From Haloplanus sp. GDY1 (GTDB lineage Archaea; Halobacteriota; Halobacteria; Halobacteriales; Haloferacaceae), in assembly GCF_023703775.1 (NCBI RefSeq), contig NZ_CP098514.1:2577998-2641997 (forward strand): a DNA stretch of 64,000 bases. Direction: 5' to 3'. Positions 3,007-50,226 of this stretch are shown here, piece after piece. The translations under genes were made by a program, and so were the position numbers. The notes beneath the pieces were generated by a model, which worked only from the letters and a program-made list of their open reading frames with translations, was not told the origin of the DNA and did no database searches. The first letter of the stretch is position 1; each line of letters starts with the position of its first letter.

Positions 3007-3018
3007 ATGGGCCTGTAA
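3007..3018 (+). other. Three-codon upstream ORF overlapping the EF-2 start
   Basis: ATG GGC CTG TAA encodes Met-Gly-Leu, and the last A of its stop is the A of the EF-2 ATG at 3018. A possible TATA-like run (CTACCCTTTT, about 2985-2994) lies 13-22 bases before its ATG. It may be a regulatory start-stop element, or simply a chance ATG in the leader. Confidence 0.35.
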
Positions 3019-5207
3019 TGGGCCGACGAAAGAAGATCGTACAAGAATGTGAACGGCTGATGGACAAACCGGAGAACATCCGGAACATCGCCATCGCCGC
3101 TCACGTCGATCACGGGAAGACGACGCTGACGGACAACCTGCTCGCCGGCGCGGGCATGATCTCCCAGGACACCGCGGGCCAGCAGCTCGCGATGGACACG
3201 GAGGAGGACGAGCAGGAACGCGGCATCACCATCGACGCCGCGAACGTCTCGATGACCCACGAGTACGATGGCGACAACCACCTCATCAACCTGATCGACA
3301 CGCCGGGCCACGTCGACTTCGGCGGCGACGTGACCCGCGCGATGCGCGCCGTCGACGGGGCCTTGGTGGTGGTCGACGCCGTCGAGGGCGCGATGCCCCA
3401 GACGGAGACGGTGCTCCGGCAGGCACTTCGCGAGGGGGTCAAGCCGACCCTGTTCATCAACAAGGTCGACCGCCTCATCTCCGAACTCCAGGAGGGTCCC
3501 CAGGAGATGCAGGAGCGGCTCCTCGCGGTCATCCACGACGTGAACGAACTCATCCGCGGCATGACCGAGGAGATGGACGACCTCGACGACGACTGGACCG
3601 TCTCCGTCGAGGACGGTACCGTCGGCTTCGGCTCCGCGCTCTACAAGTGGGGCGTCTCCATGCCCTCGATGCAGCGGACGGGCATGGACTTCGGCGACAT
3701 CATCGAACTCGAACGCGCGGACAAGCGCCAGGAACTCCACGAGCGGACGCCGCTGTCGGACGTCGTCCTCGACATGGTGTGTGAGCACTTCCCCAACCCG
3801 CTGGAGGCCCAGCCCCGTCGCATCCCGCGCATCTGGCGCGGCGACGACGACTCCGACATCGCGGAGTCCATGCGGCTGGTCGACGAGGACGGCGACGTCG
3901 TCCTGATGGTCACGGACATCGGCATCGACCCCCACGCCGGCGAAATCGCCGCCGGCCGCGTCTTCTCCGGCACCATCGAGAAGGGCCAGGAGCTGTACGT
4001 CTCGGGGACGGCCGGCAAGAACCGCATCCAGAGCGTCGGCATCTACATGGGCGGCGAGCGCGAGGAGGTCGAGCACGTTCCCGCCGGCAACATCGCCGCC
4101 GTCACGGGCCTGAAGGACGCCATCGCCGGCTCCACGGTGTCGAGCGTCGAGATGACGCCCTTCGAGTCCATCGAGCACATCTCCGAGCCCGTCATCACGA
4201 AGAGCGTCGAGGCGAAGAACATGGACGACCTGCCGAAGCTGATCGAGACGCTCCAGCAGGTCGCCAAGGAGGACCCGACGATCCAGGTCGAGATCAACGA
4301 GGAGACCGGGGAGCACCTCATCTCCGGGCAGGGTGAACTCCACCTCGAAGTCATCGGCCAGCGCATCGAGCGCAACCAGGGCATCCCGATCAACACCGGC
4401 GAACCCATCGTCGTCTACCGCGAGTCGCCACAGGAGGCCTCCCAGGAGGTCGAGGGCGTCTCGCCGAACCGCCACAACAAGTTCTACATCACGGTCGAGC
4501 CCCTGAGCGACGACATCGTCGAGGAGATCCAGCTGGGGAACGTCTCGATGGACATGCCCGAACTGGAGCGCCGCGAGGCGCTGCAGGAGGCCGGCATGGA
4601 CAAGGACACCTCCCAGAACGTGGAACACATCCACGGGACGAACATCCTCATCGACGACACGAAGGGGATTCAGCACCTCAACGAGACGATGGAACTCGTC
4701 GTCGAGGGGCTGGAGGAGGCCCTGGACGACGGGCCGCTGGCGGCCGAACCCGTCTCGGGTGCCCTCATCCGCCTGCACGACGCGAAGCTCCACGAGGACA
4801 CCATCCACCGCGGTCCGGCACAGGTCATCCCCGCCGTTCGGGAGGCCGTCCACCGCGCGCTGATCGACGGCGAGATTCGCCTGCTCGAACCCATCCAGAA
4901 CGTCCGGATCGACGTTCCCTCGGAGCACATGGGTTCGGCCTCGGGCGAGATCCAGGGCCGCCGTGGCCGCGTCGACGACATGTACCAGGAGGGAGGCCTC
5001 ATGGTCATCGAGGGCATCGCGCCCGTCGAGGAGATGATCGGCTTCTCCTCGGACATCCGCAGCGCCACCGAGGGTCGCGCGTCGTGGAACACCGAGAACG
5101 CCGGCTTCCGCGTGCTCGCCGACAACCTCCAGCCGGAGAAGATCGAGGAGATCCGCGAGCGCAAGGGCATGAAGCTCGAGCTTCCGCCGTCGGTCGACTA
5201 CATCTAA
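3018..5207 (+). CDS. fusA: Translation elongation factor 2 (aEF-2)
   Basis: The 729-residue GTPase that drives ribosomal translocation. G motifs are complete: AHVDHGKT (28-35), RGIT (68-71), DTPGH (94-98) and NKVD (148-151). The C-terminal part has the archaeal/eukaryotic diphthamide loop with IHRG; the His expected to carry diphthamide is residue 597. Length and the N-terminus [18 protein letters not shown] match haloarchaeal EF-2, which fixes the start at 3018. The gene has its own upstream region (2843-3017) and is not in an operon with S7, because the zincin-like gene intervenes on the other strand. Confidence 0.98.
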
Positions 5208-5287: not shown

Positions 5288-6475
5288 ATGGCAGGAGTAC
5301 TCACCCGCATCGATCGGGCGCTCGTTCGACTGTTCGGATCGGGACCGGCCGGCACGGGTCGCCGCCGGGAGCGGTTCGCCCGGATGGGCGCGTCTGCGGT
5401 CGTCAGCCTGACGGGCATCGCGCTGTTCGTCCCGAACCTGGCTCCGTTCCTGGTGGGCTCGCAACCGGCCGTGGGCACCGGCCTCGCGGTGCTGGGGACG
5501 CTCGTCTGTCTCGGGCTGGTCGTCGCCGGCGTGTTACTGTATCGAAGCGACTTCTCGACGCCCAACGCGGTTCGGATCGCGGTCTGGAACTTCCTCGGGC
5601 TCGTGGTCCTCGGGACCGTGCTCCTGGCCCACGGCGTCTACCGCGGGGCGCTCGGCACCGTCGCTCCGGTCGACGCCCTGGCGGCGGGGAACGTCCTCGC
5701 GATCAGTGCGGCCGCCCACGTCATCATCGGCGTCCACGACGCCAGACGGGTGCGGGCCGAGCAACTGGTTCGCGAACGCGAGAAGTTCTCCGTCCTGAGC
5801 CGCGTTCTCAGACACAACCTCCGGAACGACGCGACGGTGCTCATCGGGCAGTCGGAGCGGCTGGCGGACGAACTCGACGACCCGTCGCTCGCGGAGATGG
5901 CGGAGACGCTCACCCGGCGCTGTCAGGAGGTCGGCGGCCTCGCCGACAAGACGAAGGCGATGGTGGAGGCGCTGGACCGGCGGTCGGCCCCGAACGAGCG
6001 GCTGGCCGTCGACGCGGTGGTCGCCGAGGCCGTCGAGAACGTCCGCGGGGCCGACGAGACCGAACTCGACGTCGAGGTTCCGGACGACCTGTGGATGTGG
6101 GCCGACGGCGGCGCGGTGACGGCGCTCACCGAACTCGTCGAGAACGCGGTGGAACACGGCGGCGAGCGCGTCCGGATCACGGCGACCGCCGACGACGAGT
6201 CGGTCCACGTCCGGGTCGCGGACGACGGCCCCGGCGTCCCACGGACCGAACGGGACGTGGTCACCGGCGAGTCGGAGATCACCCAACTCGAACACGGGAG
6301 CGGCCTGGGGCTGTGGGTCGCTCGCTCCATCGCTGAGGCTGCCGACGGGCGGTTGACCTTCGACACCGAGGACGAGTGGACGGTCGTGGGGCTGGTCCAC
6401 CGGCGGGCCGAGCCGCCGGTCGACGCGACTGCCGCGGCACGCGGCTCGACCGATCCGGCCCGGGCGACGGCCTGA
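5288..6475 (+). CDS. Membrane sensor histidine kinase
   Basis: A 395-residue kinase with three to four hydrophobic helices in the first 145 residues, then a HisKA-type helix and an HATPase domain. The phospho-acceptor His is residue 176 in the haloarchaeal H-box RHNLRND; the N-box is ELVENAVEHGG, with G boxes VADDGPGVP and GSGLGLWVARSI further on. There is no PAS or GAF domain, so sensing would be by the membrane region. The start at ATG 5288 begins MAGVLTRIDRAL; an open frame upstream of it lacks family-like sequence. No response regulator is adjacent, so the partner is unknown. Confidence 0.88.
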   Translation: MAGVLTRIDRALVRLFGSGPAGTGRRRERFARMGASAVVSLTGIALFVPNLAPFLVGSQPAVGTGLAVLGTLVCLGLVVAGVLLYRSDFSTPNAVRIAVWNFLGLVVLGTVLLAHGVYRGALGTVAPVDALAAGNVLAISAAAHVIIGVHDARRVRAEQLVREREKFSVLSRVLRHNLRNDATVLIGQSERLADELDDPSLAEMAETLTRRCQEVGGLADKTKAMVEALDRRSAPNERLAVDAVVAEAVENVRGADETELDVEVPDDLWMWADGGAVTALTELVENAVEHGGERVRITATADDESVHVRVADDGPGVPRTERDVVTGESEITQLEHGSGLGLWVARSIAEAADGRLTFDTEDEWTVVGLVHRRAEPPVDATAAARGSTDPARATA

Positions 6476-6531
6476 GGCGCCGCGGCCACGGCCCGGGCGC
6501 GAGCGACCGACGCGTCCGGTTCGACCGATGC

Positions 6532-6562
6532 AATCATATACCCCCTCGGCACAGTGTACACT
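6532..6562 (+). promoter_or_regulatory. TATA-type promoter of the leader ORF/hom operon
   Basis: An AT-rich element ATCATATA (about 6532-6539) precedes the ATG at 6563 by roughly 25 bases, the spacing expected for a leaderless haloarchaeal transcript. Transcription starting here would place the short Thr-rich ORF at the very 5' end of the hom operon mRNA. Confidence 0.55.
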
Positions 6563-6682
6563 ATGCCTCGCGGCACGACTACCGGCAGTCGACGTGTCGG
6601 CACGGAGCTACCCCGCGGCCCTTCCCCGTCGCCGATTACAATTATCGCGTCGACGGGGCGTGCCGCGGGGGTGACGGCCTGA
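6563..6682 (+). CDS. Thr-rich 39-residue leader ORF upstream of the homoserine dehydrogenase operon
   Basis: A small ORF beginning about 25 bases after a TATA-like element and ending in TGA directly followed by the ATG of the ACT-domain gene (TGAATG). Seven of 39 residues are Thr (5, 6, 7, 14, 26, 31, 38), with Ile 25, 27 and 28 around Thr26. Thr and Ile are end products of the pathway entered through homoserine dehydrogenase. The DNA also holds two mutually exclusive 9-bp pairings: 6569-6577 with 6659-6667, and 6611-6619 with 6662-6670. This looks like a leader peptide with alternative RNA folds, but it is an inference; it could also be a small protein with its own function or a chance ORF. 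Confidence 0.5.
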   Translation: MPRGTTTGSRRVGTELPRGPSPSPITIIASTGRAAGVTA

Positions 6683-7267
6683 ATGTCCGAGACGGACGAG
6701 GCAGTCACCACCGACGGAACGGATTCTGACGAGGAACGCACCGACGGCGGCGAGCGACCGCAGACGCATACGATCCGGCTGGAACTCGTCGACAAGCCGG
6801 GCGAACTGCTGTCGGCGCTCCGCCCCATCGCGGAGAACGGCGGGAACCTCCTCTCGATATTCCACGAGCGGGGGAACCTCACGCCCCGGGGACACATCCC
6901 CGTCGAGGTGGACGTGGAGTGTCCGCCGGATCGGTTCGAGACCATCGTCGAGGCCCTCCGCGAGGAGGGAGTCAACGTCATCCAGGCGGGTGCCGAGCGC
7001 TACGGCGAGCAGTTGACGCTGTTGCTCGTCGGCGACATCGTCGACACCGACCTCTCGGATACGCTCCAGCGCATCGCGTCGAGCACGGACGCGACGCTCG
7101 CGGACCTGTCGCTCTCGGCGCCCGAGGGCCGGGACGGCGTCTCCAGCGCCCGCCTCCGACTGGCGACCCGCACCGGCCGGTCGAACGAGGTGTTCGACCA
7201 CGTCCGACAGATCGCCGACGAGAAGGGGTTCGACGTGATCGAACCGCTCGTGGAGGTGGCCGAATGA
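6683..7267 (+). CDS. ACT-domain amino-acid-binding protein, partner of homoserine dehydrogenase
   Basis: A 194-residue protein with a polar, acidic N-terminus of about 28 residues, then an ACT domain (THTIRLELVDKPGELLSALRPIAENGGN, landmarks at residues 29-56) and a second, less regular ACT-like half. ACT domains bind amino acids and usually impose feedback control. Its stop overlaps the hom start by four bases (ATGA), so it is probably made in step with homoserine dehydrogenase and acts as its regulatory subunit; that partnership is inferred from context. It starts directly after the leader ORF stop. Confidence 0.88.
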   Translation: MSETDEAVTTDGTDSDEERTDGGERPQTHTIRLELVDKPGELLSALRPIAENGGNLLSIFHERGNLTPRGHIPVEVDVECPPDRFETIVEALREEGVNVIQAGAERYGEQLTLLLVGDIVDTDLSDTLQRIASSTDATLADLSLSAPEGRDGVSSARLRLATRTGRSNEVFDHVRQIADEKGFDVIEPLVEVAE

Positions 7268-8217
7268 GCCTCCGCCTCGCGGTGATCGGCGTGGGCGCGG
7301 TCGGTCGGTCGGTCGTCGAACTCGCCCCGGAGTACGGCCACGTCGTGACGGCGGTCGCGGACTCGCGGTCGTCGGCGGTCGACCCCGAGGGGCTGAACGG
7401 CGAGGTCGTCTTCGAGCGCAAGGAGCGCGAGGGCGTGGTCGGGGACGGCGATCCGGAGGACGCGCTCGCCGCCGAGTACGACGTGCTCGTGGAGGCGACG
7501 CCGACGACGCTCGGCGACGCCGAACCCGGTTTCTCGCACGTGCGGGCGGCCCTGGAGCGCGACCGGCACGTCGTGCTGGCGAACAAGGGGCCCGTGGCGG
7601 AGCGCTACGCGGACCTGCGCGCCCTGGAGCGCGAGAGCGAGGGATCGGTGATGTTCGAGGCGGCCGTCGGGGGCGCCATCCCCATCCTCTCGACCATCGA
7701 CGACTTCGGGGCGAGTCAGATCACGGCCGCCCGCGGCGTGCTCAACGGCACCGCCAACTTCATCCTCTCGCGGATGGCCGCCGAGGGGCTTGGGTACGAA
7801 CACGTCCTCGCGGAGGCCCAGGACCTCGGCGTCGCGGAGGCCGACCCGTCGTTCGACGTGGAGGGGACGGACGCGGCCCTGAAGTTCGTCATCCTGGCGA
7901 ACGTCCTGAGCGACGGCGAGCAGGTGTTCCGCCTCGACGACGCGACTGTCGAGGGCATCCGCGAGATCCCGGCGAGCGCGCTCGACCTGGCCGCGGAGGA
8001 CGGCCGGACGGTCCGCCTGATCGGCGAGGCAACGGCCGACGGCGTCCGCGTGGGACCGCGTCTCGTCCCGCAACACGACGCGCTGGCGGTCACGGGCACG
8101 CGCAACATCGTCCAGTTCGAGACGGTCCACGCCGGCCAACTGCACCTCAGCGGTCGCGGCGCGGGCGGGCCGGAGACGGCGACGGCGGTCCTCTCGGACG
8201 TGGGCAGACTGGAGTGA
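7264..8217 (+). CDS. hom: Homoserine dehydrogenase
   Basis: A 317-residue NAD(P)-dependent enzyme that reduces aspartate semialdehyde to homoserine, on the route to Thr, Ile and Met. The N-terminal Rossmann motif VIGVGAVGRSV (Gly9, 11, 14) is clear. Further landmarks are VLANKGPVAERY (about residue 104), EAAVGGAIPI, the GVLNGTANFILSRM segment (about 159-172) and DVEGTDAALKF. The enzyme ends without its own ACT domain; that domain is supplied as the separate upstream protein, to which it is coupled by an ATGA overlap. Confidence 0.94.
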   Translation: MSLRLAVIGVGAVGRSVVELAPEYGHVVTAVADSRSSAVDPEGLNGEVVFERKEREGVVGDGDPEDALAAEYDVLVEATPTTLGDAEPGFSHVRAALERDRHVVLANKGPVAERYADLRALERESEGSVMFEAAVGGAIPILSTIDDFGASQITAARGVLNGTANFILSRMAAEGLGYEHVLAEAQDLGVAEADPSFDVEGTDAALKFVILANVLSDGEQVFRLDDATVEGIREIPASALDLAAEDGRTVRLIGEATADGVRVGPRLVPQHDALAVTGTRNIVQFETVHAGQLHLSGRGAGGPETATAVLSDVGRLE

Positions 8218-48297: not shown

Positions 48298-50226
48298 ATG
48301 ACGGACCCCGACGCGGACCCGCGGATTCCGGAACCGGTGTCGGCACCCGCACTCCCCGACTTCGAGTACGCCCACCTCGACGGCCGGGAGCGGATCGGCC
48401 GCGGCGGCGACGCCGACGTGTATCGTTCGTCGGTCACACACGACGGCGAGCGACACTGGGTCGCAGTCAAGGAACCGCGGTTCGACGGGACGGTCCACAG
48501 CCACCTCCTCGAGACGTTTCACGACGAGGCCGAGACTTGGAGTGCCCTCGACGACCATCCGAACGTCGTCACCGTCCACGCGTGGGACACGACGCCGGTG
48601 CCGTGGATCGCCCTCGAGTACGCCGGCGCCGGGACGCTCGCCGGTCGGCTCGGCGGGGTCGACCCCGCGGAGGCGCTGTGGGTCGGCGGCCGCGTCGCCG
48701 ACGGCATCCGGCACGGACACCGCCGCGGCGTCGCCCACCTGGACGTCAAGCCGTCCAACGTCCTCCTGTTCGAGACCGGCCCGGGGACGTGGGACTACCC
48801 GAAGGTGACCGACTGGGGGCTCGCCGAACACCTGCTGGACCGCTCGGGCTCGGTCGGTGGGTTCTCGCCGCGGTACGCCGCCCCCGAACAGTTCGACGCC
48901 GAGCGGTTCGGCGACCCCGACGATTACACCGACGTCTACCAACTCGGCGCGCTCGTCTACGCGCTACTGACGGGACGACCGCCGTTCGAGGGGGGTGACG
49001 CCCCGGTCACGCGGGAGCGGTTACACGGTCGCCCCGAGCCGCCGTCGGCGGTCGTCCCCGCTCTCCCCCCGGCCGTCGACGACGCCGTGTTGCGGGCGCT
49101 GGCGCCGGCGAAAGCCGACCGGTACGAGACGGTCGTCGGCTTCCGGAAGGAACTGGACCGGCTGTTCGAGGCGGTCGCGTCCGGGACCGACGGAGCGGCC
49201 AGCGGGACGGGGGCGCCGGGGGGTGGTCCCGCTCCGTCCGCACCCACCGACCCCGACGACGGAGGGACCGGGTCGGCGACCCCGACCCGCCGCACGGCGC
49301 TCGGGGTGCTCGGTGCGGGCGTCCTCGGCCTCGGTGGTTGGTGGCTCTCGACCGACGACGGGGCTACGGGACCCGCCCCCTCCCCGGACGGCTCGACCGG
49401 GGACCCGTCCTCGGCGTCCGCCGACGCCACGGACGGGGCGACCGGCGGCGACGCGACGACGACGCCGCGCGGGACGGCCACCCGTACGGCGACCCCGGGA
49501 GCCGACCCGGTCTCGGCTTCGGTAGCCACCGACCAGTTGACGAGTCGCTGGCCCCTCCGGAGCGGCTTTCGGGACGCCGTCGGCGACAACCACGCCGAGG
49601 CCCGGCGCGGCGAGGCGGCGTTCGGGCAGTTCGACGGCCGCCCCGCCGCGGCGTTCGACGGGTCGGTCGGTGTCATCGTCTCCTCGGGGGCACACGCCGA
49701 GTTGAGCATTCTCTCCCCCGACCACGGCCCGGGAACCGTTGCGACCTGGGTCTACTTCGACCGCCCGACCGGCGCCCGAGACGCCGACGGCACGTCCCCG
49801 ATCCACCACCTCTTCCGGAAGGACGCGGAGTACAACCTCTCGGCCCGTCCCGCGGACGCCGCCGGCGCGGTGGAACTCACCTTCACGGTCTCCGGCCAGA
49901 GCGGCAGCAGGTACGCGACGGTCGACCGGACCGACGACGACCTCGTCGTGTCGACCCGCGAGTGGCACCACGTCGCGTTCGTCGCCGTCCCCAACGGCTC
50001 GCTGACCGCCTACGTCGACGGCGCTCGCCGGTTCCACGACGACGGGATGGACGCCGCCAGTCCGACGAACTCGTCGTACTGGGCACAGGAGACCATCGGC
50101 AGTTGGTACGGCACCGAGTCGCCCGCGTGGTACGACCTGCTGGTTGGAAAGCTGGCGGACCTGCGAATCTACGGCACCGCGCTGTCGGGCGACCAGGTGT
50201 CGCGGCTGTACGCGAACACGTCCTGA
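48298..50226 (+). CDS. Transmembrane Ser/Thr protein kinase with external LamG-like domain
   Basis: A 642-residue protein. The N-terminal kinase domain (about 27-290) has IGRGGDADVYR, the Lys of VAVK (58), the catalytic loop HLDVKPSN (Asp149, Lys151, Asn154), a DWG instead of DFG (Asp172) and AAPE. A single hydrophobic helix (about 334-352, after Arg331-Arg332) follows a Gly/Pro-rich linker, then a Thr/Ser/Asp-rich stalk and a C-terminal concanavalin/LamG-type beta domain (about 414-640; WVYFDRPTG, EWHHVAFV, LADLRIYGTALS). By charge the kinase should face the cytosol and the LamG part the outside, like a receptor kinase. Ligand and targets are unknown. Confidence 0.85.
   Translation: MTDPDADPRIPEPVSAPALPDFEYAHLDGRERIGRGGDADVYRSSVTHDGERHWVAVKEPRFDGTVHSHLLETFHDEAETWSALDDHPNVVTVHAWDTTPVPWIALEYAGAGTLAGRLGGVDPAEALWVGGRVADGIRHGHRRGVAHLDVKPSNVLLFETGPGTWDYPKVTDWGLAEHLLDRSGSVGGFSPRYAAPEQFDAERFGDPDDYTDVYQLGALVYALLTGRPPFEGGDAPVTRERLHGRPEPPSAVVPALPPAVDDAVLRALAPAKADRYETVVGFRKELDRLFEAVASGTDGAASGTGAPGGGPAPSAPTDPDDGGTGSATPTRRTALGVLGAGVLGLGGWWLSTDDGATGPAPSPDGSTGDPSSASADATDGATGGDATTTPRGTATRTATPGADPVSASVATDQLTSRWPLRSGFRDAVGDNHAEARRGEAAFGQFDGRPAAAFDGSVGVIVSSGAHAELSILSPDHGPGTVATWVYFDRPTGARDADGTSPIHHLFRKDAEYNLSARPADAAGAVELTFTVSGQSGSRYATVDRTDDDLVVSTREWHHVAFVAVPNGSLTAYVDGARRFHDDGMDAASPTNSSYWAQETIGSWYGTESPAWYDLLVGKLADLRIYGTALSGDQVSRLYANTS

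Follow-up and report, generated by a model that had tools for sequence, protein, structure and literature searches.

A window of 64,000 nucleotides from Haloplanus sp. GDY1 (contig NZ_CP098514.1) was analysed for a short open reading frame (ORF) that precedes an ACT-domain gene and hom, the gene for homoserine dehydrogenase. The leader with its arms, the ACT gene and hom are on the forward (+) strand. The ORF (6563-6682) starts with ATG at 6563 and encodes a peptide of 39 amino acids, MPRGTTTGSRRVGTELPRGPSPSPITIIASTGRAAGVTA, with seven Thr, three of them consecutive, and Ile-Thr-Ile-Ile at codons 25-28 (ATT ACA ATT ATC, 6635-6646). Its TGA (6680-6682) lies directly before the ATG of the ACT gene at 6683. 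The original prediction, which read this ORF as a candidate threonine leader peptide ahead of hom, was correct in all these coordinates. The ACT-domain (amino acid binding) protein of 194 amino acids (6683-7267) matched PF01842 with an E value of 1.8e-05 and 24.9 bits, below the curated cut-off of 27, and hom (7264-8217), whose start overlaps the ACT stop, matched PF00742 with an E value of 1.7e-49. Since a TATA-like box, CATATA (6535-6540), is found about 28 nucleotides (nt) 5' of the leader ATG, the ATG is presumably at a leaderless position; at homologous loci the TATA element most often starts 31 nt 5' of it. In Haloferax volcanii, 72% of the protein-coding transcripts are leaderless according to the part of PMC4983044 used here. 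Judged from sequence comparison, the ORF is probably an archaeal Thr/Ile leader peptide controlling the translationally coupled ACT-hom operon, and that it is a leader carrying the cognate amino acids is very likely. The gene order in the window is aEF-2 (3018-5207), a histidine-kinase-like gene (ending at 6475), the leader ORF, the ACT gene, hom and EF-1A (from 8382), where aEF-2 and EF-1A are what we take the translations to be.

Relatives of the ACT gene were collected from 80 loci on named contigs and from the whole genomes of the family as defined by GTDB (170 of 170 genomes with a match). From Haloferacaceae 130 loci were taken, and 119 ACT/hom loci were retained after dropping 11 duplicates. 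A leader was scored where an ATG was suitably spaced from a TATA-like element and its frame ended between -12 and +4 nt from an in-frame ACT start. By this rule 116 of the 119 loci carried the leader ORF, and 100 did so under a stricter rule admitting only TTATA/TATA. Because an end at the ACT start is built into both rules, the telling point is that nearly all the loci satisfy them. The leaders of 26 genera vary from 13 to 69 codons, with 27 distinct lengths. The junction with ACT is nearly fixed: a 4-nt overlap in 88 of the 116 leaders, abutment in 22, an 8-nt overlap in four and a 1-nt gap in two. Thr/Ile codons were present in the ORF in all 12 Haloplanus genomes and in most genera of the family.

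The content of the leaders was compared with that of the other two frames. Thr accounts for 15.3% of leader residues (mean of 26 genera); the corresponding figures are 6.7% in the +1 and 8.1% in the +2 frame. It is above both other frames in 21 of the 26 genera and is the commonest leader residue. Ile is also raised (3.5% versus 0.3% and 1.1%). The rare codon ACA makes up 190 of 683 Thr codons in leaders and 30 of 997 in ACT genes, a comparison in which the Fisher p overstates independence because the loci are related. The hexamer ACAACA is in frame in 47 of its 48 occurrences, and always so in 16 genera. At the same site, the leaders of Haloplanus, XH8 and genera g6 and g8 have Ile-Thr-Ile-Ile or Ile-Thr-Ile-Thr, written with ATT/ATC and ACA, and two Haloplanus have Met-Thr-Ile-Ile. 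This Thr/Ile codon pair is the most constant unpaired element of the leader. Outside the Thr/Ile codons, conservation of the peptide tracks the arms of the RNA helices described below.

The geometry of the junction is that of termination-reinitiation: the stop codon overlaps or abuts the downstream start, and a Shine-Dalgarno (SD)-like sequence lies inside the upstream ORF (uORF) in 106 of the 116 leaders. In the window this sequence, GGGGGTGA (6667-6674), would serve reinitiation at the ACT start. In the part of PMC6728339 drawn on here, the second gene of AUGA-overlapping pairs in H. volcanii is translated only through reinitiation, and this was shown for the ACT/hom pair. ACT and hom therefore probably depend on ribosomes that finish the leader. 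The same arrangement would also result from a plain coupling uORF: leaderless initiation being the efficient route in haloarchaea, the ORF would bring ribosomes to ACT by termination-reinitiation with no sensing of amino acids. This explanation accounts for the stop-start overlap in nearly all leaders, for the strict ACT/hom coupling measured in H. volcanii (same part of PMC6728339), and for Haloarculaceae, g13 and g17, whose short Thr-poor uORFs have an SD and a stop that overlaps. It leaves unexplained the enrichment of Thr, the rare in-frame ACA ACA, the covariation of helix A:E (below) and the cognate codons in leaders that are not coupled, those of ilvB and pheS. A uORF serving coupling only is thus unlikely.

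Several observations on the distribution of the leader weigh against a Thr/Ile leader peptide. Three of the 119 loci lack it: in L109 and L182 the frame is broken in a way that, by eye, resembles one-base homopolymer changes, and L163 has no leader under the rule. The leader of genus g17 has 13 amino acids and no Thr, in what is apparently a paralogous copy. In genus g13 (L333-L335, L338, L340, L341 and L343) the leader is replaced by a GTG-started uORF of 14 codons without Thr, whose stop overlaps the ACT ATG (seen by eye, in L333 only), and several leaders of g19 and g22 have no Thr run. Outside Haloferacaceae, judged on the loci from named contigs, Natrialbaceae mostly have a 15-codon ORF starting MTT or MMT, Haloarculaceae mostly have a uORF of 11-15 codons with 0-2 Thr, and three of four Halorussus loci have no uORF. 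Finally, thrC has no such leader near its start at 12 Haloplanus loci. In genus g23, also among the exceptions, two of four loci contain, by eye, an ORF with Ile/Thr. Conversely, Halarchaeum (L053) carries a PTTT leader of the Haloferacaceae type.

Paralogous ACT genes were seen as well. The g17 locus resembles the second ACT copy of a Haloferax genome. This second copy (L344, Haloferax G034) and L143-L145 are preceded by a Thr-poor uORF of 12-13 codons whose stop overlaps the ACT start.

The leader of the window folds better than its dinucleotide shuffles (z -2.40; 2 of 200 shuffles as good). Two 9-bp pairings, both present as originally predicted, share bases 6662-6667: arm A (6569-6577, CGCGGCACG), just 3' of the leader start, with arm E (6659-6667, CGTGCCGCG), 3' of the Thr/Ile codons; and the arms of stem 2, CCCCGCGGC (6611-6619) and GCCGCGGGG (6662-6670), the latter overlapping both arm E and the SD-like run. 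The two are mutually exclusive in the window. An inner hairpin that was not part of the original prediction, CCCCGTCG (6624-6631) with CGACGGGG (6651-6658), is strong in the window and holds the Ile-Thr-Ile-Ile codons, which align with the in-frame ACA ACA of other genera, in its apical loop.

Pairing between arms was assessed by a swap test, in which the best gapless helix score of cognate arms was compared with that of arms swapped between genera (22 genera, with g3, g17, g19 and g22 left out). The interval for arm A was the first 30 nt or so behind the ATG, and that for arm E the 36 nt that follow the Thr/Ile codon pair. Helix A:E scored 20.5 with cognate and 17.0 with swapped arms (permutation p ~2e-5, or ~2e-4 after Bonferroni correction for the nine arm combinations tried), and 19 of the 22 genera were above their own median, g4, g6 and g27 being at or under it. 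The paired sequences themselves differ between genera: GGCACGC/GCGTGCC, TCCACGGGC/GCCCGTGGA, GGACACGG/CCGTGTCC, TGGACAC/GTGTCCA, GCACGACCCT/AGGGTCGTGC and CGCACGCCT/AGGCGTGCG. In one representative per genus, the distance from the codon pair to the start of arm E is 0-11 nt for 19 of the 22, and hence the arm would lie under a ribosome waiting there. Helix A:E is thus, as far as comparison of the leaders can tell, a conserved pairing open to disruption by a ribosome positioned on the cognate codons. Compensatory changes, which the original prediction had proposed to look for in both stems, were found for the first, the Haloplanus form of A:E, which is kept across genera; stem 2 is restricted to Haloplanus and one neighbouring genus.

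A second helix, B:C, ends beside the Thr codons (swap test p ~4e-4; 13 of 22 genera above the median). In 37 sequences chosen for sharing one register, 85.4% of cells pair, five of ten pairs are changed on both sides, and the covariation score was reached by none of 500 shuffles; RNAalifold credits almost no covariation energy to it. In the window the region of arm B, GTCGGCACGGAG, is at 6596-6607; it pairs in other genera with arm C just 5' of the Thr codons, and the Haloplanus version is not well supported.

Some results on the fold count against the proposed pairings. B:C is no better than swaps in Haloplanus itself, and neither are B:E (p 0.34), C:E or the pairings of arms A, B and C with the SD in the swap test across genera. 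A cruder test of A:E gave a p of only 0.008, and the search intervals and arm names were chosen after inspection of the sequences. B:E was accordingly set aside as an alternative to B:C. A consensus fold of whole leaders from nine genera gave nothing (z 0.31), since the arms shift position between genera; six other groups, each folded within itself, gave z from -0.97 to -4.42. Over all genera the minimum free energy is mildly low relative to shuffles (mean z -0.82).

Chance pairing in GC-rich DNA, a caution raised with the original prediction, is not borne out by the shuffles or by the conservation of the ORF, the Thr/Ile codons and the first stem beyond the genus. In its wider form this explanation takes the helices and repeats as DNA operator sites or fortuitous GC-rich pairing and the peptide as a small protein acting in trans. 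The high GC content and the repeated GGCACG/CGTGCC motifs would suit it; the swap test controls for composition, however, and away from the Thr/Ile codons the peptide is conserved where the RNA arms lie, so it has only a very slight chance of being right. A ligand-binding RNA resembling a riboswitch, with A:E as the closing helix and the ORF incidental, would also show a closing helix and inner hairpin near the 5' end with covariation. In that case it is hard to see why the frame survives many indels, why ACA is exchanged for other Thr or Ile codons and why the other unpaired parts are variable. Rfam gave no match up to an E value of 1 in 6400-6900 of the window, and none at the gathering threshold in five relatives. 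A riboswitch is thus very unlikely.

Leader peptides that attenuate transcription are a textbook mechanism in bacteria. In the thr operon of E. coli, the leader thrL (Rfam Thr_leader) encodes a Thr/Ile-rich peptide before an operon containing hom. The haloarchaeal ORF resembles thrL in its Thr/Ile-rich peptide directly before a Thr-branch operon with hom and, in the window, in its alternative RNA pairings; it differs in being leaderless, in having a stop that overlaps or abuts the next start, and in lacking a U-tract terminator and an Rfam match. Classical attenuation, where a ribosome stalled at Thr codons tips the leader towards an antiterminator and away from a terminator, would be in keeping with cognate codons and mutually exclusive pairings like those of bacterial thr, ilv and phe leaders. 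However, the longest T run in 6563-6800 is of two bases, so that no intrinsic terminator with a U-tract precedes the structural gene, although factor-dependent termination could still operate, and the leader passes straight into ACT. Transcription attenuation of this kind is therefore improbable.

Comparison among loci established the ORF, its frame, the coupling geometry, the cognate codons and the covariation of A:E; from these we infer translation of the leader, stalling, and the sign and route of the effect. Expression of ACT-hom would track charged tRNA-Thr, and also tRNA-Ile in Haloplanus and its relatives. Ribosomes would load at the leaderless 5' end, read the leader, and reinitiate first at the ACT start that overlaps or abuts its stop, then at hom. 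Arm A, right after the start codon, would pair with arm E, which follows closely on the Thr/Ile codons, and another hairpin would form at these codons or 5' of them. If coupling makes ACT and hom dependent on ribosomes that have completed the leader, stalling would lower output unless it also raised loading or transcript yield. A gate at the 5' end is favoured here because of where the two arms lie, A at the start of the leaderless transcript and E beneath the ribosome that stalls: E would be covered while a ribosome waits on the Thr/Ile codons, leaving the 5' end open to more loading, and with ample Thr the ribosome would proceed, A:E would form and fewer ribosomes would start. This gate at a leaderless start is a tentative proposal, with rather less than an even chance.

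The evidence points to control of the ribosomes on the leader more than to unmasking of the SD. The switch of the original prediction, by which the ACT start would be hidden or freed, was not supported as a general device: outside Haloplanus and one neighbouring genus stem 2 is not kept, and the arm-to-SD pairings all fell short in the swap test. Unmasking of the SD as a general switch was rejected, as the arm-to-SD pairings are no better than swaps and haloarchaeal SDs do not initiate de novo (PMC6728339, in the part used). The case for a leader peptide is strong; the switch is offered as a hypothesis.

Similar ORFs precede other operons. Before ilvB, 72 of 77 Haloferacaceae loci in 27 of 28 genera have a short, leaderless ORF whose last residues are Ile-Val-Gly (or Val-Val-Gly) and one or two more, such as Ala or Val; the count was selected by that ending, and a search on TATA position alone gave nearly the same set. 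In a class-wide draw (59 genomes searched), 25 of 26 loci examined had it, in five families (f1, f3, f4, f6 and f7). These leaders have 16-55 codons, stop with TAG, TAA or TGA, and carry the rare codons ATT and GTA; the codons 5' of the invariant GTA GGG vary and are mostly Ile, Leu or Val. Beyond the stop lies CCCC(T), with which the invariant GTAGGGG pairs; the resulting GUAGGGG...CCCC(U) hairpin spans the stop codon, and the stretch may thus be kept for RNA or DNA. From these features the ORF is a probable ilv leader peptide. The copy in the same genome as the window is at L219 (G000:C1, near 479078). Before pheS, 17 of 26 Haloferacaceae loci have an ORF containing three or more Phe, typically with GFGFFF before the stop (e.g. 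L395, L393), which is likewise a probable pheS leader peptide. Both are uncoupled, unlike the hom leader. No leader was found near the start of trpE or hisG (12 Haloplanus loci each) or at trpC (own genome only), and the Rfam searches gave no match.

The bacterial leaders ilvL/ivbL and pheM are rich in the cognate residues. The haloarchaeal leaders before ilvB and pheS share this richness, and differ in being leaderless, with no terminator identified and, at ilvB, with the hairpin around the stop. In H. volcanii, uORFs of 26 amino acids before pheS and of 23 before the Trp-tRNA ligase gene HVO_A0127 are given in Table 2 of PMC4983044. The section concerned reads them as small proteins, and neither hom nor ilvB appears in that table. 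This survey of H. volcanii, in the part used, does not regard control by structured leaders as typical of haloarchaea. The AUGA overlaps with internal SD studied in PMC6728339 are of the type found at the hom leader, and ACT/hom is itself one of the coupled pairs; unlike the hom leader, that work involves no amino-acid sensing, and the parts consulted do not mention the leader-ACT junction. A full-text literature search, judged by titles and the beginnings of abstracts, yielded no leader-peptide attenuation in Archaea, though it left subscription papers mostly uncovered and does not prove absence.

Elsewhere in the window, ARAGORN calls a tRNA at 49093-49184, of unsure identity and with a four-base anticodon.

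Whether haloarchaea have a general leader-peptide regime, with cognate leaders at hom, ilvB (Ile/Val/Leu) and pheS and with a ribosome on rare Thr codons holding the leaderless 5' end open at hom, is evenly balanced on present evidence. If true, Archaea would have a first case of ribosome-mediated attenuation, and the gate, at a leaderless start, would be of a new type. Conserved cognate leaders at three operons would mean that the logic known mainly from bacteria was retained, or evolved, in archaea on leaderless transcripts. As the hom leader is present in the genetically tractable Haloferax, ribosomal sensing of amino acids in archaea is directly testable. The conserved ORF and the matching fold across most of the family suggest that archaea may sense amino-acid shortage by leader peptides.
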